40,879 nt of DNA from Bacillus multifaciens (GTDB lineage: Bacteria; Bacillota; Bacilli; Bacillales; Bacillaceae_G). Of this stretch, positions 15,185 through 39,993 are shown one piece after another. The stretch spans positions 1 to 40,879 of the forward strand of contig NZ_JAVBXD010000040.1 of the NCBI RefSeq assembly GCF_030756675.1. Reading direction: 5' to 3'. Every line of letters starts with the position of its first letter. Within the stretch, counting starts at the first letter, position 1. The notes below the pieces were generated by a model, which was given only the letters and a program-made list of their open reading frames with translations, ran no database searches and was not told the DNA's origin. The position numbers and the translations under genes were made by a program.

Positions 15185-15312
15185 ATATTGTAATCTCCTT
15201 TCCTTATACATGCATTAGTATAAAGCATTCTTTTTTTTAGCGAAACGAAACTGAACGAAATAATTACCTCTACATACAATAAAGTAAGGCATTGTTTTGA
15301 GGGGGAGTAGGT

Positions 15313-15768
15313 ATGTACTATGTAAATCCTAACTCGTATAATCAATTTTATCGAGTGAACGAAGGGACTTATAAACAAGTATCGCAAGCGATTTTAGAAG
15401 CGATTCAAGGGGAAGCTGCGGCAATTGATTTTTATAGCCGGCTTGTAAACGAGGCACCTAATGCAAAACATAAAAAAGATATTTCACATGCATTAGAAGA
15501 TGAAAAGGTACATTTACAGCAATTTATACAATTGTTTACAACATTAACGGGGCAACAGCCAACGTATCAAGTAGTACAAACGCAATATTCTTCCTATAAA
15601 GAGGGATTAGAACGTGCGTATGAAGATGAACTAGAAGCGTATGAAGACTATCGGAATGCTTATTTGCTAACACAAAATTTAGCAGTTCGAGATGTTTTTT
15701 TTCGAGCGATGACTGATGAAATGGAGCATGCTATTCGTTTTGGGTTTTTACGATCTTCTTTATCATAA
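15313..15768 (+). CDS. Ferritin-like domain protein (YhjR-like)
   Basis: The 151-residue, largely helical protein carries two ExxH-type metal-ligand pairs, EDEKVHLQQF near residue 75 and TDEMEHAIRF near 140. Additional glutamates lie at EGEAAAIDFY and EDELEAYEDY. This four-helix arrangement fits the ferritin/rubrerythrin-like fold that binds a di-iron centre. The tyrosine-rich N-terminus (MYYVNPNSYNQFYRVNEGTY) resembles Bacillus YhjR, a sporulation-related protein. GAGGGGGAG precedes the ATG. It is monocistronic with a terminator immediately after the stop. Confidence 0.75.
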   Translation: MYYVNPNSYNQFYRVNEGTYKQVSQAILEAIQGEAAAIDFYSRLVNEAPNAKHKKDISHALEDEKVHLQQFIQLFTTLTGQQPTYQVVQTQYSSYKEGLERAYEDELEAYEDYRNAYLLTQNLAVRDVFFRAMTDEMEHAIRFGFLRSSLS

Positions 15769-17041: not shown

Positions 17042-17086
17042 AAGAGCAGTTAAGTATCTGTAGGATACTTAACTGCTCTTTGTTTC
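17042..17086. terminator. Bidirectional terminator with an 18-bp perfect stem
   Basis: AAAGAGCAGTTAAGTATC (17042-17059) and its complement (17065-17082) enclose a 5-base loop. The right arm lies inside the last codons of the minus-strand glycosidase gene. Confidence 0.85.
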
Positions 17087-18181
17087 GTGAGAAGCAACAG
17101 CAGATGGTCCTGTAAATTCCGCAATCTTTGAAGCTTCTGCTGGATGACCGTCAATTGTAACATCTACTTTTTGATTGTTATTGGTAGTTACAACCCAACA
17201 GTTTGGAAGGTAACGAGATTTATGAGAAAGAGTAGAAGGGATGTTTAATATATCTCCTAGGGCATACATAGTTGCAGAAGAACCGCCATCCATAGCCATC
17301 GCATTTTCAGCGCCATTTTCATATAAAAGATCCTGACAATCTTTTAAAGAAGCGCCAATACTGTGCGGTTGTCTACCATCTACGATAAGAAACATAATTG
17401 AGCCATCTTTTTTCTGAGCCATAATGCTTCGCGGGCCATATCCCCAGCCACCATCATTCGTCAGCATTTTTTCACCATTTACGATAAGTTGTGGCATAAA
17501 ACCAGCTGCAGAAACAATATTTTTATTCAATAATTGCTGTGCAGAGTAGTCGCCTGTTATCATTTGTCCATATTTTGTTAAACCAGTAATAATAGCTGGT
17601 GTATTCTCATTTTGAGGCGTATGAATAATTTGCCCGTTTTCAATTACAATACCTAGACCAACTTTACCGCCACCGTGGCCTGTTTCATCTGAAAATCCAC
17701 TTGCATTTACCGCAGCAAGCGCGTGATTCCGCTTTGCCATCACGTAAATTTTTTCACCGACATCGCTACCTTGTGTACCTTGCTGTGTTACAAGTTTTAC
17801 ATTAAGAGGATTACTAATTGTCATAAGTTTGCCTTCAAAATAATGATCCTCATATTTTTTTTGAATGGTTTCAATTTTTACGTGAAGCGGCATATGCTTT
17901 TTTGCTTCTAATTGTTGTTTTGTAAGTTTTTGAAGCCCATCAGATTGGCTGTTTTTCCATTTTGGATTATTAATTGAATTTGAAATATCATTTAATTCTT
18001 GTTGAGATAAAAATGTGAATTTTGCTAAATCACGATGTTGTGAAGTTAAGATACTTTCCGCAGCAATTACACGTAATTTATGTCCATACGGCGTACCAAA
18101 CAGAACACCAGCACCAATTACAATGAAAACAAGTAATAAAATGGAGGATATTTTTATTGCCTTTTTTAAATATTTTTTCAT
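17069..18181 (-). CDS. Phosphodiester glycosidase family protein (NAGPA domain)
   Basis: The 370-residue protein has an N-terminal transmembrane anchor (residues 10-30) and an extracellular domain. Typical NAGPA stretches are AAVNASGFSDETGHGGG, GYGPRSIMAQKKDGSIMFLI, VDGRQPHSIGASLKDCQDLL and AMAMDGGSSATMY. The human relative removes N-acetylglucosamine from phosphodiester-linked mannose. Bacterial members are thought to act on wall polymers or exopolysaccharide phosphodiesters, and the substrate here is unknown. The start is ATG with AGAGGAG upstream. It is monocistronic. Confidence 0.85.
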   Translation of the reverse strand: MKKYLKKAIKISSILLLVFIVIGAGVLFGTPYGHKLRVIAAESILTSQHRDLAKFTFLSQQELNDISNSINNPKWKNSQSDGLQKLTKQQLEAKKHMPLHVKIETIQKKYEDHYFEGKLMTISNPLNVKLVTQQGTQGSDVGEKIYVMAKRNHALAAVNASGFSDETGHGGGKVGLGIVIENGQIIHTPQNENTPAIITGLTKYGQMITGDYSAQQLLNKNIVSAAGFMPQLIVNGEKMLTNDGGWGYGPRSIMAQKKDGSIMFLIVDGRQPHSIGASLKDCQDLLYENGAENAMAMDGGSSATMYALGDILNIPSTLSHKSRYLPNCWVVTTNNNQKVDVTIDGHPAEASKIAEFTGPSAVASHETKSS

Positions 18182-19840: not shown

Positions 19841-20670
19841 GTGCTATAAGAAAAACGGATGTTTTATACTACTGAAAAAGATAGATTATGTGCAATCAGT
19901 GAAGGGGAAAGAATACACTGATTGCAGTTTCATTTGAGATTAGTGAGCTGTTAATAATTACTTCATGCAGGAGAGCTGTTCCGTCCAAAGAAAATAAAAA
20001 GTAACTCCTCTAAACTTCCTGTGGTGCAAATTGGCCTACACGTTTTTCTAATTTCCTCATTAAATAAACATATACATTAAGGTCAAAGACGAAAATTAAC
20101 CCTCCTCATCATACAGATTTTCATATCGATACAAAAGGATAGAAATATAAATTTGCGAAGATAGTATAGCAACTTCTCTTTTTATCATCAATAAACAAGA
20201 GGAAACATCGATTGTGAACTTAAAATAAACTGTAAAATGCTCATTCATCCTGAAAATAATAAGGAATCCTCATTTATCCCGCTATTCAAGCCTCAAGATG
20301 TAGAGAAAAATGAAGAAAATCTCCAGTGATTGCAGTTTCACTTTATTGAACACAGCAATTAATCAAACTATGAAAACGAAGAAACTTGTCTATGAATATT
20401 CCAATACTAGTAAGAATGATTAAATTATTATTTTCGCTTTATATCTGATAAAACACTATTCATTTGTTTAATGGTAAAAATGTAATAAAAAACAGTTAGT
20501 AGTACGCCTCTTGTTAAAACAAAGAAACTCCACTATTCTTCAACAGCTATTCTTTTTTTCAAATGGAATCAATTTATAAAAATATATATTAATCTAGGGT
20601 ACATATGCGAGTGATGAATCATAGAATATGAGATGAAGCGATTTCTAAATTACAGTTAAGGAGAAATAAA
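19841..20670. other. 830-base region without a convincing gene
   Basis: Near its start TGCAATCAGTG (19891-19901) and CACTGATTGCA (19916-19926) form an 11-bp hairpin that may terminate the exonuclease transcript. The 14-base string TGATTGCAGTTTCA occurs at 19919-19932 and again at 20327-20340. An open frame of 44 codons ends at 20329 and has protein-like composition (HPENNKESSFIPLFKPQ), but it has no ribosome binding site and I cannot match it. The region may hold the remains of a lost gene. Confidence 0.45.
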
Positions 20671-21222
20671 ATGAAAGCATATTTTAGTAAAAGAAGAGTC
20701 AGTAGAAGAGATATAGAAAAATATAATCTCATTGGGAGCGGAAAAGATGGGGAAGTATATCAATTAACCGATAATAAATGTGTGAAAATATATTTTATGG
20801 AAGAAACTCAAAAAAAAGAGTTGCAGGCTCTTAAAATTGGACAATCTTCACCTGTTATTCCACGACTTTATGAATATGGAGAAAATTATATCGTTATGGA
20901 GTATGTACAAGGAATTTCACTTGCTCGTTACTTGAAAAAAGAAAAAAAAATTACAGAAGATTTAACTGGAAAAATATTAATAATGTTAAGTGAATTAAAA
21001 AAGATAGGCTTTACACGATGGGATACGGAAGTGAGACATGTTTTAATAAATGAAAATGGTCAGTTAAAAGTAATTGATCATAAAAGAGCTTTTACTTTAA
21101 ATAGAAAGGTTCCTACCAAATTATTAAAAGGGTTTGAGAAATTTGGATTGGCAAACGATTTCTTAAAAGATGTGAAGAATATACAGCCTTCTGTTTACAA
21201 TACATGGATGAAGCGTCAATAA
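20671..21222 (+). CDS. Small protein kinase-like protein with altered active site
   Basis: This 183-residue protein has the front half of a kinase fold: the nucleotide loop GSGKDGEVYQ (22-31), the ATP-anchoring lysine K39 in CVKIYF, and MEYVQG at the hinge. The catalytic loop reads RWDTEVRHVLI, with D118 present but histidine where the metal-binding asparagine is expected. The DFG position reads DHK (136-138). It is short, lacks much of the C-terminal lobe, and resembles small Bacillus kinases such as YrzF. Activity is therefore uncertain. AAGGAGA lies upstream of the ATG. A terminator follows the stop, so it is not part of the downstream glycosyltransferase operon. Confidence 0.75.
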   Translation: MKAYFSKRRVSRRDIEKYNLIGSGKDGEVYQLTDNKCVKIYFMEETQKKELQALKIGQSSPVIPRLYEYGENYIVMEYVQGISLARYLKKEKKITEDLTGKILIMLSELKKIGFTRWDTEVRHVLINENGQLKVIDHKRAFTLNRKVPTKLLKGFEKFGLANDFLKDVKNIQPSVYNTWMKRQ

Positions 21223-21253
21223 AACATGAAGTGCCTTATACTTCATGTTTTTT
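21221..21253 (+). terminator. Intrinsic terminator of the kinase-like gene
   Basis: AAAACATGAAGT (21221-21232) pairs with ACTTCATGTTTT (21240-21251), followed by Ts. The remaining 309 bases before 21563 hold no gene that I can see; they should contain the promoter of the following operon. Confidence 0.88.
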
Positions 21254-21562
21254 CGTAGTTAAACTACCGCTATATTTTTTGATTACTTCTTTTTACAATG
21301 TATGAGTGATAAGGATCCCCTCTGAAAATCGTTAAAAATTCAAAGAAGGAAAGTGGGAGATAACAGTTGGTATGTGCCTAATTAGCAAGAGATTTTCATC
21401 AATGATGAAAAGTTTTCTTTATCACATAGAGAGAAATGCCCATGTAAATGTACGGCTGAAGTAGTGGTTATTAGTAATAAATAAAAACAAGTTTTCCGCT
21501 AATGACAGTTTCTTTTTGTAGTATTAATCATAAATTAAGTAGTACAAGGAGTGAAAATACTA

Positions 21563-22219
21563 ATGAAAGAGTGTATTTTAGTCATTGGCGCACATCCCGA
21601 CGATGAGTTATTAGGATCTGGCGGTACTTTAAAAAGATTAGTAGAAGAAGGACATCAAGTAATTTCAATTATTACTGCTCTAGGAAGAAAAGAGGAAGCA
21701 CATCACATACAGCAACTAGGCCGCTGTGCAAATAAGGAAATTGGTATTGAAGAAGTGATATTCCTCGAACATGCTAATTTAGAGTTAGAATTAATTCCAT
21801 TACATCAATTAACGAAAGAAATTGAACAGTTAATACAAATTCATAAACCAAGCAAAATCTTCACCCATCATTATGGAGATCTGAATATGGATCACTATGT
21901 TACTTTTCAAGCGGTTTTGACTGCGACTCGCCCTCTACCAAACCAACAGCCAATAGAATTGATTACATTTGAAACCGTTTCTTCGAGTGAATGGAATATA
22001 CACACGAATGATAAATCTTTCAAGCCTAATTATTTTGTCAATATTACAGATCAAATAGATTCAAAGATTACGGCGCTTAAACATTATGATGTAGAAATGA
22101 GAGATTTTCCTCATCCGCGTTCATACAAAGGGGTTGAGTATTTAGGGAGGGTTAGAGGAATGACGATTGGCGTACCATACGCCGAAGCGTTTGAAGTAAT
22201 AAGGAGGGTTTGGAAGTGA
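21563..22219 (+). CDS. PIG-L/LmbE family deacetylase
   Basis: The 218-residue protein has the zinc site typical of N-acetylglucosaminyl deacetylases: AHPDDE with H11 and D14, and a second histidine in LNMDH (H111). Relatives remove the acetyl group from GlcNAc in glycolipids, in mycothiol (MshB) and in bacillithiol (BshB) precursors. I use ATG 21563 because AAGGAG lies 11 bases before it, rather than GTG 21551, which is inside that site. Its TGA overlaps the GTG start of the next gene. It is distinct from the bshB2 gene at 38732. With the neighbouring glycosyltransferases it probably acts on a sugar that one of them adds. Confidence 0.85.
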   Translation: MKECILVIGAHPDDELLGSGGTLKRLVEEGHQVISIITALGRKEEAHHIQQLGRCANKEIGIEEVIFLEHANLELELIPLHQLTKEIEQLIQIHKPSKIFTHHYGDLNMDHYVTFQAVLTATRPLPNQQPIELITFETVSSSEWNIHTNDKSFKPNYFVNITDQIDSKITALKHYDVEMRDFPHPRSYKGVEYLGRVRGMTIGVPYAEAFEVIRRVWK

Positions 22220-23541
22220 AAAAGAGATTTGAGTTCCCTTATCCTTATATAATCCAAACATTGGATAAGTATTACGGAGTTAAATCATACTCATTACAAA
22301 AAAAGAAAAGTACAGCAGAAGAACGTTATACAGAGTCAAAGGGGTCTAAAAAGAAGAAACTTTCAATATTAATCGCTACATTTTGGGACTATCCTCATAC
22401 TGGCGGACTATCTAATTATATTACAGCACTTAGTGAAGGATTAAGAAGACAAGGACATCACGTTGATATTATCTCTCCTAATCACTTTTCTAGCAGTCAA
22501 GTGGAGAGGCTTCGCGAAGGGATTGTTCCTGAGTTAAAAAATTTTTTAAAAGAACGATATGGAAGTTATAATAGCACAATTATCAAAAATCAAAGAAATA
22601 TGTATATATATGAAAGAACGATTCGTGAAAATATCAAATTTAAAAAATATGACGTCTTCCATGCGCAAGATTTGTTTACAGCTAATATATTAGGAAGAAT
22701 CAATGAATATTATGGAAAAAAATTGATATTTACTCCCCATGGAATGTTTACTTTTAATCGGGTAAAGTTCGGCATGTTTAAAAAGGATTCAGTAGAAGAA
22801 TTCTACCATATGGCATTAGAAAGAAAAGCAATTGAATTTGCCGATCACCTTATTATTCTCAGTGATTCATTTCGTCGCCCATTAATGAAGTTAGGGGCAA
22901 ATCAAGAGAACATGACAACCGTACTGACAGGTATTGATTATCCTGATAAGTATCAAACAAAAAATACATCTTCAACCCGTAATAAAATTGTTATTACATG
23001 TGTGGCTAGATTAGGACCAAGAAAAGGTCATAATGTATTACTTGACGCCATTTCACAGATGGAAAGCAAATATAAAGATAAAATTAAATTGCTTATTGTC
23101 GGCGATGGTGAGATGAGAGAGAAATTAGAAGAACAGGTTCATTCTTTGAATCTTTCCATGGTGGAATTTTTAGGGCAAAGAGATGATGTACCAGATATTT
23201 TAAGTAAAACAGATATTTTTGTACTTCCAACTTTAAATGATAGCCTCCCAATTTCAATTATTGAGGCAATGCATAGCGGGCTTTGTGTTATTTCGACGCC
23301 ATCAGGAGGTATACCTGAACTTGTTAAAGACTCTAAGACAGGCATTCTTGTCGATGCAGGAGACGCAAATAAACTGGCACGTGCATTACATTCTGTTATT
23401 GCAAATCAGCAGGAGCGGGAAGAGCTGGGGAAAAATGCAAGAAAATTTGCTCAGAAGTATTTAACTAGGGAGACTATGGTAGCAAACATCGAAAACATCT
23501 ACAAAAAGGATTTAAGTAAGGAAGAGTTCAATGAATCATGA
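22216..23541 (+). CDS. GT4-family glycosyltransferase (first of two paralogues)
   Basis: This 441-residue enzyme has a GT-B fold. An N-terminal extension of about 48 residues precedes the first strand (LSILIATFWDYP) and the glycine-rich loop HTGGLSNYIT. The C-terminal domain has VARLGPRKGHN, LLIVGDGEMREKL and the nucleotide-sugar site PISIIEAMHSG with an aspartate eight residues before the glutamate. It should transfer a sugar from a nucleotide donor to an unknown acceptor. AGGAGGG (22201-22207) places the start at GTG 22216, overlapping the deacetylase stop. It overlaps the following ATP-grasp gene by 11 bases. Confidence 0.85.
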   Translation: MKKRFEFPYPYIIQTLDKYYGVKSYSLQKKKSTAEERYTESKGSKKKKLSILIATFWDYPHTGGLSNYITALSEGLRRQGHHVDIISPNHFSSSQVERLREGIVPELKNFLKERYGSYNSTIIKNQRNMYIYERTIRENIKFKKYDVFHAQDLFTANILGRINEYYGKKLIFTPHGMFTFNRVKFGMFKKDSVEEFYHMALERKAIEFADHLIILSDSFRRPLMKLGANQENMTTVLTGIDYPDKYQTKNTSSTRNKIVITCVARLGPRKGHNVLLDAISQMESKYKDKIKLLIVGDGEMREKLEEQVHSLNLSMVEFLGQRDDVPDILSKTDIFVLPTLNDSLPISIIEAMHSGLCVISTPSGGIPELVKDSKTGILVDAGDANKLARALHSVIANQQEREELGKNARKFAQKYLTRETMVANIENIYKKDLSKEEFNES

Positions 23542-24706
23542 GCATGCAGCAGTTGTACTGGATTTAAGTGCAAATGGAATTGGGATTATTAGAAGTTTGG
23601 CGAGAAAAGGAATTAGCGTTTATGCATTTGATGTAGAGAAACCTTATAAAATAGGAAAATCGCGCCTTGCTACATGCGGAATATGCCCAAGCCCTTTGTA
23701 TGAAGAAAATGAATTACTAATTTTTCTAATCAACTTGGCTAAAGAATTTAAAGTGAAACCTGTTTTGTATACAGGGGCAGATGATTATGTGATATTCATT
23801 TCAAAATATCGAATGGAGCTCTCTAACTACTTTTTATTTTTGTTCCCTGAACATTCGTTGATTGAAGAAACACTAAATAAACAAAAAGCATATGAACTAG
23901 CAGTCAAACATAATATTCCGTGTCCTAAAACGTATGTAATTACGAAACAAGAACAATTGGAAGAAGCAATATTGAACGTTGATTTTCCATGTATATTAAA
24001 GCCGGTTTTGGGTCATGAGTTTCGAAAAAAGATAAACCAAAAGGCTATTCTCATTCAGAATGCAGATCAACTGAGAAATGAGTATCAATCATATCGACAG
24101 CATGGAAAGCTCATAATTCAAGAAATTATTCCTGGTGACAATCAATGCTTTTATAAAGTTGCGACATTTTATGACGACAACATGGAGTTGCTTGCGTTAT
24201 TTTCCTTACAAAAAAATCATCAATTCCCAGCTGAATTTGGAACAGGAGCGCACATTGTTAGTAAACAAGTACCAGAATTAGTAGATATATGCTTGCCTTT
24301 TTTTAAAAACATTGGTCTTAAAGGTATTGCTATGGCTGAGTTTAAAAAGGATCCTCGGGATGGTGTTTATAAATTTATTGAAATAAACCCGCGCTTTTGG
24401 TTAACTCATAGTCTCACAGGGCCAGCTGGCATCGATTTTGTTTACATGTATTATTTATATTTGACAAAGCAAAATCCAACGCCGAGACTCAAACAAATAG
24501 ACGGTATTAAATGGATTTATCTTGTTCGATATTATTTAACATTTCGTCATAAGAAAAAAAGAGCTGAAATGAAATGGAAAGACTTTTATAAAGGATTGAG
24601 AGGTAAAAAAGAGTTTGCTTTGTTTGCGTGGGATGACCCAATGCCATTCATTAGAAGCACATGGTCTCACTTGGTAAATGCCTGGAAACGAAAGCGAAAG
24701 GAATGA
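23531..24706 (+). CDS. ATP-grasp family carboxylate-amine ligase-like protein
   Basis: The 391-residue protein starts with a Rossmann-like preATP-grasp segment (AVVLDLSANGIGIIRSLARK). The ATP-grasp core includes FPCILKPVLGHEFR, which carries the ATP lysine, then LIIQEIIPGDN at the hinge and YKFIEINPRFWL with the magnesium-binding glutamate and asparagine. Such enzymes join a carboxylate to an amine through an acyl phosphate. The basic C-terminal 80 residues are outside the core. The ATG overlaps the end of the glycosyltransferase gene. A free amine made by the deacetylase is an attractive but unproven acceptor. Confidence 0.8.
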   Translation: MNHEHAAVVLDLSANGIGIIRSLARKGISVYAFDVEKPYKIGKSRLATCGICPSPLYEENELLIFLINLAKEFKVKPVLYTGADDYVIFISKYRMELSNYFLFLFPEHSLIEETLNKQKAYELAVKHNIPCPKTYVITKQEQLEEAILNVDFPCILKPVLGHEFRKKINQKAILIQNADQLRNEYQSYRQHGKLIIQEIIPGDNQCFYKVATFYDDNMELLALFSLQKNHQFPAEFGTGAHIVSKQVPELVDICLPFFKNIGLKGIAMAEFKKDPRDGVYKFIEINPRFWLTHSLTGPAGIDFVYMYYLYLTKQNPTPRLKQIDGIKWIYLVRYYLTFRHKKKRAEMKWKDFYKGLRGKKEFALFAWDDPMPFIRSTWSHLVNAWKRKRKE

Positions 24707-25767
24707 AAATATTGTACGAAGCAGAAGTATTGTCCGGTTACCTTCAAAAGTTAAGAATTGCAGAAAAACTCTCTTATTCAATGAATAAGAGAGTTGTAAT
24801 AGATTCTAATAAAATAGAGTGTTTAAAATCAACAAGAAGAAGTAGCATTTATAAATTGTTTATTCAAACAAAAGCTGATTACTATCCAATCATTTTAAAA
24901 ATATATAATTCAGCAGATTACAAAAACGAAATAGAGATTAATATGTATAATACAGCTTATCCTATATTGAAAGAATTTCTTCCTGAAATATATCATATTG
25001 AACAAAATCGCAATGAGACTTGGATATTTATGGAGTTTGTACGTCAAATACGTGGTCAGATTACCTTTTTACCGAAACATTTTGACTACATTATTCCCAC
25101 GGTTGCTAAACTTCACGCACACACATTTGAAGACAATTATAAAAAACATAAATATGCTTGGAAAACTTGGCTCCCTATTTATGAATCGAGCCGCATGAGG
25201 AATGATCGAACGAAACAAATTGAAAAGACGATTGATTTTCTCGATGCTGGAATGAAAGACGATCGGTTAAGGGGAATTATTAAGCCTCATTATAAATCGC
25301 TAGTAAAACTATGTAACAAAGGGCCGGATTTTTTTCCGGAACTGTTTGAAAATGGTTCGTCAATAACGCATGGCGATCTTCATTTGCAAAATATTTGTAG
25401 TAATAATGTATCACTACATGCACCGTGGCATATTCAGTTTATCGATTGGGAGTCAACTAAATATGCACCTGTCTGGTTTGATATGGTTGTTCTAGTTGAA
25501 ATTTTATTAGGCTTCAGAAAAGATTGGCAAAGCAGTGCAGAAGAAATTCGTACACATTGTGTGGAAGTTTATGCAAAAGAAATGCAAAAGAATGGCATAA
25601 ACTTTAAAACAAATCCAATGGACCTTTATAAAATGGCGTATTTGCAAAGAACATTAGAAAAGGGACTGCATACTCAGCTGCGAAGAATATTTGATAACCG
25701 CGGCGGTGAATTATTACCATATCATCTTGAAAAAATATCTACCTGGGGAAGTGAATTAGGTTTATAG
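24703..25767 (+). CDS. APH/CotS-like phosphotransferase
   Basis: This 354-residue protein has a kinase fold of the aminoglycoside phosphotransferase type. The catalytic loop is HGDLHLQN (223-230), and the metal-binding aspartate is D248 in FIDWES. LILKIYN-like sequence near residue 65 should carry the ATP lysine. Relatives phosphorylate small molecules such as sugars, choline and antibiotics; the B. subtilis CotS spore-coat family has the same fold. The open frame begins at 24661, but ATG 24703 forms an ATGA overlap with the ATP-grasp stop and gives the family length. The substrate is unknown, perhaps the operon product or a sugar precursor. Confidence 0.78.
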   Translation: MKILYEAEVLSGYLQKLRIAEKLSYSMNKRVVIDSNKIECLKSTRRSSIYKLFIQTKADYYPIILKIYNSADYKNEIEINMYNTAYPILKEFLPEIYHIEQNRNETWIFMEFVRQIRGQITFLPKHFDYIIPTVAKLHAHTFEDNYKKHKYAWKTWLPIYESSRMRNDRTKQIEKTIDFLDAGMKDDRLRGIIKPHYKSLVKLCNKGPDFFPELFENGSSITHGDLHLQNICSNNVSLHAPWHIQFIDWESTKYAPVWFDMVVLVEILLGFRKDWQSSAEEIRTHCVEVYAKEMQKNGINFKTNPMDLYKMAYLQRTLEKGLHTQLRRIFDNRGGELLPYHLEKISTWGSELGL

Positions 25768-25806
25768 CATATTTACAATTTTCATCATCAGCTGAGTAAG
25801 GAGGAG

Positions 25807-27135
25807 ATGCTTCTGAATACAGCAAAGGAAAGACGGAATGAATGTAATTATCCATTCCATACAAGCCTACTAAAAATTATGGATGAATACTATCAAATAG
25901 ATAATAAAAATGATCGTATTACCGAACCGTTTCAGACGTTTGAAATAAAAAAAGATAGTACACTAAGTAAAACAAGCAAACTAAAAATTCTTTATGTAAC
26001 ATTTTTGAAATATCCTAATACAGGGGGATTATCTAACTATATTACTTCTTTAAAAACAGGCTTTGAAAAGTATGATCATGACGTAGAAGTCATCTCTCCT
26101 ACTCAAATGACAGCAGTTCATTTAGAGAAAGACATTCCGAAGGCTGCAGAACATGCAAGGGATTTTATGTTACAAAGATATGGGATAGTGAATGAAAAAA
26201 TTATAAAAAACACGAGTTTTTTAAATGTTTTTAAGTCTTTTTTAAGAGAAAAAAGCTTAGAGCAATATGATGTCTTTCATGCACAAGATTTATTCGCGGC
26301 CTTTTTATTAGGACAACTAAACCTAGAGTATAAGAAACCACTATTTTTTACACCGCATGGGCATTTCACAATGAGCCGATTAAAATTTGATAAAATAGAA
26401 GAAGGATCAATTGAAGAAGCGTATTTCAGTGAAATTGAAAAACAGGGAATAAGAGCGGCTGATCAAATCATAACAATCAGCAATTCCTTTCATATTCCTT
26501 TAAAAGAATACGGAGCAAAGACAGAACAGTTGATTACTGTTCATACAGGTATAGATTTTCAGCAAGATTCAAAATCTAAAACGAAGTATAATAACAAACT
26601 TGTCATTTCCTGTGTTTCTCGCCTCTCGCCTAGAAAAGGTCATGATATTCTTCTAAAAGCACTCTCACAAATTCAACAAGATTTAACGAATGTAGAGATA
26701 TGGATTGTTGGGGATGGTGTCATGCGAGAAAGGCTAGAACATCAAGTAATAGAACTTGGACTTGACAATGTTAAATTTTTTGGCAGAAGAACAGATATAC
26801 CAAAAATTCTTTCTGTTTCTACAATCTATGTATTACCTACTATTAACGATAACTTTCCAATTTCGGTTATTGAAGCTATGTTTTCTCGTCAAGCTATTAT
26901 TACAACAAATTGCGGTGGCATACCGGAAATGATTCAAAACGGAAAAACAGGGATCATTTGTGAACCCGGAAATGTGCAACAACTTTCCGATGCTATTCAA
27001 TTGCTTTTAACGAATAAGAGCCTTCGTGAACAATTAGGAAGAGAGGCTCAGGCTTATTCACGGCAACATTTAACTCAAGATGTGATGGTTTCAAAGATTG
27101 AAAGTATATATTACTCTTTTATGAACAATATATAG
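25807..27135 (+). CDS. GT4-family glycosyltransferase (second paralogue)
   Basis: The 442-residue protein is a GT-B enzyme and a clear paralogue of the one at 22216. Shared blocks are NTGGLSNYIT (residues 71-80), FHAQDLFAA, FTPHGHF, SRLSPRKGHD and DNFPISVIEAM. Both proteins also share a CNYPFHTSLLKIMDEYYQ-type N-terminal extension. AAGGAGG lies only one base before the ATG, so the true start may be the CTG at 25813, which has normal spacing. It follows the phosphotransferase gene by 39 bases and is probably the last gene of the operon, before a repeat and a terminator at 27386. Confidence 0.83.
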   Translation: MLLNTAKERRNECNYPFHTSLLKIMDEYYQIDNKNDRITEPFQTFEIKKDSTLSKTSKLKILYVTFLKYPNTGGLSNYITSLKTGFEKYDHDVEVISPTQMTAVHLEKDIPKAAEHARDFMLQRYGIVNEKIIKNTSFLNVFKSFLREKSLEQYDVFHAQDLFAAFLLGQLNLEYKKPLFFTPHGHFTMSRLKFDKIEEGSIEEAYFSEIEKQGIRAADQIITISNSFHIPLKEYGAKTEQLITVHTGIDFQQDSKSKTKYNNKLVISCVSRLSPRKGHDILLKALSQIQQDLTNVEIWIVGDGVMRERLEHQVIELGLDNVKFFGRRTDIPKILSVSTIYVLPTINDNFPISVIEAMFSRQAIITTNCGGIPEMIQNGKTGIICEPGNVQQLSDAIQLLLTNKSLREQLGREAQAYSRQHLTQDVMVSKIESIYYSFMNNI

Positions 27136-38719: not shown

Positions 38720-38731
38720 GGAGTGGAGATT

Positions 38732-39397
38732 ATGGAAAGACACGTACTTGTAGTATTTCCGCATCCAGATGATGAATCATTTGCGGCGGGAGGAACAATT
38801 CGTCAATATCGAAATAATGGAGTCCCTGTTACGTATGCTTGCGGGACACTTGGGCAAATGGGGCGGAATATGGGGAAAAACGTATTTGCCAATCGCGAAA
38901 CGATTCCAAACATTCGTAAGCGGGAATTAGAAGAAGCATGCCAAGCGATGGGAATTGAAGATTTACGCTTACTTGGCTTCCATGATAAAACGTTAGAATT
39001 TGAAGATGTTGAATTTGTTGCGGATAAAATTCAAGAAGTAATTCGCGATGTAAATCCGTCTTTAATCATTACGTTTTACCCTGAGCACGGCGTACATCCA
39101 GATCACAATGCATTTGGCCGCGCAGTTGTTCGCGCGGTAGAACGTATGCCAAAAGAAGAACGCCCGGTTATTCATGCAGTGGCTATCACGAAAAATCGTG
39201 AAGAAGCGCTAGGGAAGCCAGATGTCGTTAACGATATAAGCGATGTATTACCGCAAAAATTAACAGCACTTCGTGCGCATCGCTCACAAACAGAAGCGAT
39301 GTTAGAAGAAATGGAAGCAAAACTAAAAAAACAGGATCCAGCGACGACAAAATGGTTACAAGGTGAACAATTTTGGACGTATAAATGGGAATCATAA
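38732..39397 (+). CDS. bshB2: Bacillithiol biosynthesis deacetylase BshB2
   Basis: The 221-residue zinc deacetylase has PHPDDE (H11, D14) and HPDHNAFG for the remaining zinc ligand. The segments GTLGQMGRNMG and RRE/RKRELEEACQAMGI fit the BshB family, which removes acetyl from GlcNAc-malate to give GlcN-malate in bacillithiol synthesis. Association with yojF identifies the BshB2 (YojG) type, which overlaps functionally with BshB1. AAGGAG (38718-38723) lies 8 bases before ATG 38732; the GTG at 38723 is inside that site and is not used. A bcr1-like repeat follows. Confidence 0.9.
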   Translation: MERHVLVVFPHPDDESFAAGGTIRQYRNNGVPVTYACGTLGQMGRNMGKNVFANRETIPNIRKRELEEACQAMGIEDLRLLGFHDKTLEFEDVEFVADKIQEVIRDVNPSLIITFYPEHGVHPDHNAFGRAVVRAVERMPKEERPVIHAVAITKNREEALGKPDVVNDISDVLPQKLTALRAHRSQTEAMLEEMEAKLKKQDPATTKWLQGEQFWTYKWES

Positions 39398-39665: not shown

Positions 39666-39732
39666 AGATAGGCACATCGGTCTATTTCCTTTCATACAAT
39701 ACAAGCGAATTGTAGAAAGAGGGGGATAATAA

Positions 39733-39993
39733 ATGGATTATTCATACGAAGATGTGTACGGAGATTTTCGAAATGGTTATCAGTTGAGCGGAGAAGTCGT
39801 TTCTAGCGTGGATCCATACGTTGTGCAAACATTACAAATGATTGTCGGGAAAAATGTTGTTGTCGACACAATGCGCGGCAGTTTGCAGGGCATGTTAAAG
39901 GCTGTTAAACCAGACCATATCGTGATTGAAGAGGAAGATACACCGTTCTTTATTCGGATGCAGCAAATTGTTTGGATCACGCCGGAAGAATAA
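39733..39993 (+). CDS. YuzF-like protein (DUF2642)
   Basis: The 86-residue soluble protein has a short tyrosine-rich N-terminus (MDYSYEDVYGDFRNGYQLSG) and a small beta-rich domain with VGKNVVVDTMRGSLQGMLKA and DHIVIEEEDTPFFIRMQQIV. That domain matches the DUF2642 family, which includes Bacillus YuzF and several spore-associated proteins. The molecular function is unknown. GAGGGGGA lies upstream of the ATG. It stands alone between a terminator at 39630 and one at 40088. Confidence 0.8.
   Translation: MDYSYEDVYGDFRNGYQLSGEVVSSVDPYVVQTLQMIVGKNVVVDTMRGSLQGMLKAVKPDHIVIEEEDTPFFIRMQQIVWITPEE

Follow-up and report, generated by a model that had tools for sequence, protein, structure and literature searches.

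Gene content of the locus

This study concerns a gene cassette on a contig of Bacillus multifaciens (order Bacillales; NZ_JAVBXD010000040.1 of assembly GCF_030756675.1). The whole stretch of DNA that was analysed, hereafter the window, is 40,879 nucleotides long, and the cassette lies at positions 21563 to 27135 of its forward strand. It encodes a PIG-L family deacetylase, two GT4 glycosyltransferases, an ATP-grasp ligase-like protein and a small-molecule kinase. A separate gene for a small kinase-like protein lies upstream. The features are as follows.

21563..22219, + strand: PIG-L family deacetylase (Pfam PIG-L, 2.8e-19, 70.3 bits against a gathering score of 28.2)
22216..23541, + strand: GT4 glycosyltransferase a, a core gene (Glycos_transf_1, 3.8e-42)
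23531..24706, + strand: ATP-grasp carboxylate-amine ligase-like protein (weak matches to CPSase_L_D2, 1.2e-5, and RimK, 1.5e-5)
24703..25767, + strand: APH/EcKL-fold small-molecule kinase (EcKL, 7.4e-8; APH, 8.1e-7)
25807..27135, + strand: GT4 glycosyltransferase b, an optional gene (GT4/GT1 domains, 2.4e-41; paralogue of GT4 a)
20671..21222, + strand: small kinase-like protein of 183 amino acids, a separate upstream gene (Pkinase, 1e-7; ABC1, 1.6e-6; RIO, 1.7e-5)
21223..21254, + strand: hairpin and T run, likely terminator after the small kinase gene (read by eye)

An original prediction, made from the letters alone, had proposed an operon of five genes on one strand, and the sequence confirms this layout: a GTGA overlap at 22216, an overlap of 11 bases at 23531-23541 and an ATGA overlap at 24703 are followed by a gap of 39 bases. 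Concerning the starts, the longest open reading frame (ORF) of the deacetylase begins at GTG 21551, and an AAGGAG favours ATG 21563. GT4 a starts at GTG 22216, with its longest ORF running from TTG 22210, and the longest ORF of the APH/EcKL kinase begins at 24661 (assigned start 24703). The hairpin and T run after the small kinase gene suggest two transcripts; its stem is A+T-rich, and the hairpin is not among the calls of the terminator scanner. None of the five proteins reaches a listed NCBIfam cut-off, a statement that covers the best 25 of 44 and the best 25 of 42 families for the two GT4 proteins.

Conservation of the cassette

The original prediction had named neighbourhood analysis as a test of its operon. 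We searched a sample of 397 genomes of the order with the ATP-grasp protein (E-value up to 1e-20) and the kinase (E-value up to 1e-15). At the DNA level, a 1.9-kb stretch of the window reaches no more than 73% identity in the best-matching of these genomes. The ATP-grasp protein has matches in 58 of the 397 genomes, 21 of them at 53-82% identity, two at 41% and 38% and the rest at 32% or less. Kinase matches occur in 22 genomes, namely the same 21 that hold a close ATP-grasp relative and one further genome, G295, at 29% identity. Flanks were fetched for all 22 close loci, which are the 21 cassette genomes and plasmid pBM600 of Priestia megaterium QM B1551. The ATP-grasp, GT4 a and kinase genes are found in all 22, the deacetylase gene in 21, and these four core genes stand together in 21 of the 22 loci. 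The genes are conserved together, as predicted.

GT4 b follows the kinase in 14 loci; both predicted glycosyltransferases are present in the window, but the second is optional. The small kinase gene lies within the fetched stretch in 18 loci, and its position and strand vary between related loci. Beyond these genes, only a 4-epimerase recurs in at least four flanks (35% identity over 60% of the shorter protein). It is linked in 10 of the 22 loci, after GT4 b in eight, after the kinase in L053 (broken into two ORFs) and upstream in L001. The five predicted genes stand as given, but the set has to be enlarged to six or seven genes by the small kinase and, in those 10 loci, the epimerase. No exporter, transport or other pathway family recurs in at least four flanks of the 22 loci. 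Close relatives apart, the flanking genes vary from locus to locus, so the cassette seems to be moved as one block.

The single exception to the linkage of the core genes is genome G050, in which the deacetylase (67% identical) lies at a second locus and is followed by a GT4 50% identical to GT4 b. Here one locus (L037) reads small kinase-GT4-ATP-grasp-APH and the other (L117) PIG-L-GT4. The unit is split yet retained, and in G050 nature offers a test of whether the genes are linked in function when they are not adjacent. In genome G119 (L047, 8169-10649) GT4 a and the ATP-grasp protein are fused as one ORF of 826 residues. The cassette is a real conserved unit, and its strict linkage and the fusion suggest that a single sugar passes through transfer, removal of its acetyl group, amidation and phosphorylation.

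A Cytobacillus spongiae replicon shows the order kinase, PIG-L, GT4, ATP-grasp, EcKL kinase, GT4, epimerase. Scanning named genomes for close relatives of the ATP-grasp protein yielded two, Priestia taiwanensis and P. megaterium CH447, and a tblastn search of plasmids returned 93 records, 37 of them Priestia. Within the genus Priestia, 5 of 10 genomes have the ATP-grasp gene. For plasmid relatives from other groups below 60% identity, five of 56 records were viewed; their contexts are mixed, and one is without annotation. Distant ATP-grasp loci (L054-L074) were fetched from 21 of the remaining 37 genomes (25-41% identity), and none has a deacetylase or kinase nearby at an E-value up to 1e-10, with a weak GT4 match in one. 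A Deinococcus ATP-grasp protein, 27% identical, adjoins genes for an amino-acid racemase and a D-cysteine desulfhydrase; this neighbourhood is compatible with an amino acid as substrate.

Sigma-K-type -10 sites upstream of the cassette

Sigma-K recognises a -10 of the form CATANNNTA and AC at -35. Three upstream features were considered.

21529..21537, + strand: CATAAATTA, sigma-K-type -10 of the main operon (enrichment across loci)
20601..20628, + strand: candidate sigma-K promoter of the small kinase gene, AC-N17-CATAGAATA (cross-locus -10 enrichment)
21495..21512, + strand: conserved upstream element TCCGCTAATGACAGTTTC, 16 nucleotides before the -10 (cross-locus comparison)

The weak -10 at 21529-21537 had been noticed in the original prediction as lacking a matching -35. 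It is present, and the full AC-N15..17-CATANNNTA form was not found there. In a single locus, a full sigma-K or sigma-E pattern is uninformative, and only comparison across loci is meaningful: window-wide, the full sigma-K form is seen four times against 5.2 expected, no commoner than chance, and the single full match at the small kinase promoter is not significant by itself.

Across loci, 15 of 22 deacetylase genes, that of the window included, have CATANNNTA no more than 120 nucleotides ahead of the start (shuffle expectation 1.6), and so do 12 of 17 small kinase genes (0.8 expected). It never precedes GT4 a, ATP-grasp, kinase or GT4 b (none of 23 in each case, against an expectation of 0.2-0.8; where GT4 b is missing, its count takes GT4 a). 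To allow for kinship among the loci, we also counted sequence groups, merging loci with ATP-grasp proteins of 85% identity or more. The motif is then present in 12 of 16 groups for the deacetylase and 9 of 14 for the small kinase. Control ORFs from the same loci, called mechanically, unverified and at least 120 amino acids long, carry it in 23 of 229 cases. The Cytobacillus spongiae locus, outside the count, has CATATAGTA and CATACACTA at the two promoter places. The sigma-E form precedes the deacetylase in none of the 22 loci.

Further upstream, the element CCGCNAATGNCNGTTNC, 16 nucleotides before the window -10, is exact in 8 of the 21 other deacetylase loci, has one or two mismatches in six and was not found in seven; the pattern was derived from the same loci, so these counts are partly circular. 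Lengthened by one T, the exact element occurs once each in six cassette genomes, at the cassette, and is missing from two genomes without the cassette. With up to one mismatch there are 31 matches (6 exact) in the eight genomes, against three for the reversed pattern, and the excess extends to the two non-cassette genomes. The element may be an activator site that replaces the poor -35. In L044, L047, L048 and L108 it is part of an inverted repeat (of the AGACATTAGC...GCTAATGTCT type, by eye), unlike the single half-site of the window.

Spore context of the cassette

SpoIVA is present in all 21 cassette genomes. On pBM600 the four core genes, together with that of the small kinase, are found alongside two CotX/CotV-domain genes, the nearer one 3.4 kb from the deacetylase gene. 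Manetsberger et al. (2015, PMC4674009) report that all five P. megaterium strains without pBM600 lost the exosporium, with pBM500 not excluded, and that bxpB lies on pBM600 and its mutant retains an apparently normal exosporium; they call for the identification of essential plasmid-encoded exosporium proteins. In Bacillus subtilis, the spore polysaccharide gene spsM is sigma-K controlled (PMC4191935). In L044, a collagen gene whose BclA_C match falls under the cut-off lies at a distance of 5.4 kb from the gene for the deacetylase. A sporulation link, only suspected in the original prediction, is supported by the cross-locus promoter comparison and the pBM600 context.

These observations bear on a rival explanation, namely that the cassette is an ordinary vegetative capsule or teichuronic-type polysaccharide locus conserved by happenstance. 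GT4, epimerase and PIG-L genes are common in such loci; the P. taiwanensis set adjoins RmlA-, RmlD- and GT2-like genes (ORFs read by eye), and related ATP-grasps (23-27% identical) are found in polysaccharide loci of other phyla. Nevertheless, we regard this explanation as quite improbable in view of the sigma-K-type -10 sites, the spore-coat context on pBM600, the lack of an exporter family recurring in at least four flanks, and the TuaC model of teichuronic acid synthesis (NF047684), on which the two GT4 proteins score 73.6 and 63 bits against a cut-off of 550.

Other genes in the window deserve mention. At 39674-39993, AC-N17-CATACAATA is followed by an ORF of 86 amino acids (39733-39993) which, by eye only, resembles DUF2642-type spore-coat proteins; a DUF2642 gene is also present on pBM600 (L003, 4405-4965). 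At 15255-15768, AC-N16-CATACAATA stands ahead of a rubrerythrin/ferritin-like gene (15313-15768) that may be a late sporulation gene. On the - strand, 17069-18181 encodes a phosphodiester glycosidase of the NAGPA type (PF09992, 1.2e-35); the deacetylase gene is some 3.4 kb away. Sugar-phosphate chemistry is possible for this glycosidase, whose family is not among the recurrent flank families.

Enzyme families and catalytic residues

For the residue check, alignment rows were assigned by best match to the window proteins, and the fused L047 row was excluded from GT4 a. The deacetylase belongs to the PIG-L superfamily, with a Pfam score above gathering and with metal and catalytic motif residues His15, Asp17, Asp18, Glu19, Asp110, Asn112, Asp114 and His115 (ORF numbering) invariant in 22 of 22 sequences. 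Its closest solved structure is a diacetylchitobiose deacetylase (8bgn, 1.3e-15). The two GT4 proteins are 42% identical across 433 aligned positions. The first Glu of the paired motif is retained in 21 of 21 GT4 a and 16 of 16 GT4 b sequences; the second Glu of GT4 a is found in 18 of 21, with Asp in the other three.

The weak Pfam matches of the ATP-grasp protein score above gathering (CPSase_L_D2 25.4 bits against 19.8, RimK 25.1 against 21), and the K and EIN positions are conserved. No variation is seen at K157, E270, E284 and N286 among the 9 sequences aligned, out of 23 available; these residues would fill the usual ATP-grasp roles. No near relative was found among solved structures. 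ATP-grasp enzymes of the carboxylate-amine ligase kind require an amine.

The kinase is a member of the APH/EcKL superfamily (EcKL 32.5 bits against 22, APH 29.5 against 23.2), an APH-fold kinase being an enzyme that phosphorylates a hydroxyl. The window kinase has no NCBIfam match at an E-value up to 0.01. Its catalytic K, HxD, N and IDWE residues are retained in 23 of 23 sequences, which bears on a second rival explanation: that the cassette is a version of the CotSA/CotS spore-coat pair, GT4 and kinase-fold proteins acting as coat components. The original prediction had drawn this analogy, and a GT4 adjoining a kinase-fold protein in a sporulation setting does resemble the B. subtilis pair. 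As a family relation the analogy fails: the CotS model (TIGR02906) misses the cassette kinase in the two genomes tested, G001 and G002, while matching other genes there, all of them below its cut-off. Given also the retained catalytic residues, and a pair that is not known to include PIG-L or ATP-grasp partners, we consider this explanation very improbable.

In the small kinase, K39, D118 and D136 are retained in 18 of 18 sequences, and H replaces the usual N at 123. The cassette-linked epimerase is closest to GalE-like 4-epimerases and scores under the GalE cut-off. At one position, presumably the size gatekeeper of GalE, the 10 linked epimerases have Ser or Cys (by eye). The best PDB relatives also have Ser there, so the residue does not decide between hexose and N-acetylhexosamine.

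Proposed function

We propose that the cassette is an operon of late sporulation, expressed under sigma-K in the mother cell, and that its enzymes decorate the outermost spore layers with an unusual amino-sugar glycan or glycoprotein; we put the probability of this reading at roughly 60%. The best reading of its product, judged from sequence, is a de-N-acetylated, amide-substituted and phosphorylated amino-sugar glycan of the outer spore layers. The chemistry is proposed because of the enzyme families: PIG-L de-N-acetylases act on N-acetylhexosamine units. The 4-epimerase, in the 10 loci where it is linked, would supply a uridine diphosphate (UDP)-N-acetylhexosamine. GT4 a, together with GT4 b where present, would transfer N-acetylhexosamine onto an acceptor, and the PIG-L enzyme would strip the acetyl group. 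The amine so freed would then be coupled by the ATP-grasp enzyme to a carboxylic acid, which might be an amino acid, and the APH-fold enzyme would phosphorylate a hydroxyl. The small kinase-like protein may act in regulation or as an auxiliary enzyme. An exporter would be unnecessary if the product were deposited on the forespore from the mother-cell cytoplasm. In this scheme we infer expression, the sugar and its acceptor, the order of the steps, the ligated acid and the site of the phosphate, and the sequence of deacetylation, ligation and phosphorylation is likewise predicted.

Several points weigh against the proposal. The loci are kin, and the counts are non-independent. AC lies 14-18 nucleotides before the -10 in 2 of 22 deacetylase and 6 of 17 small kinase loci, and a sigma-E-like pattern precedes 3 of 17 small kinase genes. 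The strict CATANNNTA is missing upstream of 7 of 22 deacetylases and 5 of 17 small kinases; it was not found upstream of the split deacetylase locus of G050. CotX is not enriched with the cassette (7 of 21 cassette genomes against 142 of 397 overall, Fisher p = 1). Since many other genes lie on pBM600, and pBM500 may also be involved, the exosporium defect is not assignable to the cassette. Structure predictions of the ATP-grasp protein and the kinase were poor (predicted local distance difference test, pLDDT, 42 and 45) and were left unused.

A narrower version of the proposal names the product. Old chemical work on strain ATCC 12872, which we take to be the same strain as QM B1551, reportedly found a polymer of galactosamine-6-phosphate in the outer spore coat or exosporium of P. 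megaterium. If the cassette made this polymer, the 4-epimerase would provide UDP-N-acetylgalactosamine (UDP-GalNAc), the GT4 enzymes would polymerise it and the PIG-L enzyme would free the amine; the APH-fold kinase would add the 6-phosphate and the ATP-grasp enzyme would substitute part of the amines. We hold this version to be tentative and, on balance, unlikely. Were it true, the cassette would be a missing genetic basis of the plasmid-dependent exosporium, and the glycan class would be an aminoacylated phospho-hexosamine, which we know from no spore. Titles and abstract openings in the open-access literature showed no paper dealing with these genes as a set or with the polymer of galactosamine-6-phosphate.

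Comparison with known systems

One of the closest known systems is the bacillithiol pathway (BshA, BshB1/BshB2 and BshC), in which a GT4 and a PIG-L enzyme act on an N-acetylated sugar before a bond is made to the freed amine. There the ligation is by BshC, whereas the cassette has an ATP-grasp enzyme and adds a kinase and a second GT4. Identity with the bacillithiol and mycothiol enzymes was tried and rejected. The deacetylase scores 49.7 bits on the BshB1 model (TIGR04001, cut-off 182.5) and 37.7 on the BshB2 model (TIGR04000, cut-off 195.25). On the BshA (TIGR03999, cut-off 273.7) and MshA (TIGR03449, cut-off 462.5) models, GT4 a scores 111.1 and 97.1 bits and GT4 b 105.3 and 78.2 bits. The cassette deacetylase is neither BshB1 nor BshB2, which supports the original prediction that ordinary bacillithiol does not need it, and the canonical bshB2 is confirmed elsewhere in the window, at 38723-39397 (TIGR04000, 347 bits against a cut-off of 195).

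A third rival explanation concerns a soluble product. The cassette could make a soluble bacillithiol- or aminoglycoside-like small molecule in the mother cell, with a GT4 joining an amino sugar to a small acceptor, PIG-L deacetylating it, ATP-grasp acylating it and the APH-fold enzyme phosphorylating it for storage or protection. Both bacillithiol and mycothiol are products of GT4 and PIG-L pairs, butirosin-type clusters bring together enzymes of the PIG-L, GT4, ATP-grasp and APH types, and GT4 a and the deacetylase do score on the BshA and BshB1 models. These scores are, however, far under the equivalog cut-offs, a true bshB2 is present elsewhere in the window, no other pathway or transport family recurs in at least four flanks, and the sigma-K-type -10 sites and the pBM600 context suit the spore surface better. 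Such a soluble product is in our view rather unlikely, and the cassette resembles a system for spore-surface glycans more than a small-molecule pathway of the thiol type. Butirosin and other aminoglycoside clusters share its enzyme types; the cassette differs from them in its spore-type promoter sites and in flanks without a further pathway family recurrent in at least four loci, a comparison for which no dedicated search was made.

A diverged cluster in G295 (L118, 9042-18549) has an APH/EcKL kinase, an ATP-grasp protein, a PIG-L protein and two GT4-type proteins side by side. Identity is 25-31% where aligned, and its ATP-grasp protein is of the PylC-like/ATPgrasp_Ter type. It adjoins genes for a sulfotransferase, an ATP sulfurylase, a citrate/sulfate-type transporter and an adenylylsulfate (APS) kinase, and the 300-base stretch between its two halves contains no CATANNNTA. 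Perhaps this cluster is a sulfated relative of the same glycan chemistry. Its enzyme types suggest a module of deacetylase, ligase and kinase that recurs.

Concerning spore systems, pBM600 of P. megaterium QM B1551, required for the exosporium, carries the four core genes (BMQ_RS26615-BMQ_RS26630) and that of the small kinase. In the 30.7 kb examined, the kinase is not followed by a second cassette GT4, and no epimerase is linked. The part of PMC4674009 consulted studied BclA1, BclA2, BxpB, Alr, SleL and CotX2, not the cassette genes. The spsM, sps and ytc/cotS regions of B. subtilis resemble the cassette as sigma-K-controlled spore-surface sugar genes (for spsM, as cited above). Among the spore polysaccharide loci of B. 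subtilis we know of none that combines PIG-L, an ATP-grasp ligase and an APH kinase. Outside the B. cereus group, spore-surface glycan chemistry and the genes of plasmid-dependent exosporia are, to our knowledge, largely open. Against this background the cassette, present in 21 of the 397 sampled genomes, is a small and clearly bounded candidate. It points to a candidate chemistry on a spore glycan in which de-N-acetylation is followed by ATP-dependent amide formation and by phosphorylation; mass spectrometry can decide for or against it. The cassette probably acts at the spore surface, and its predicted chemistry is unusual and testable.

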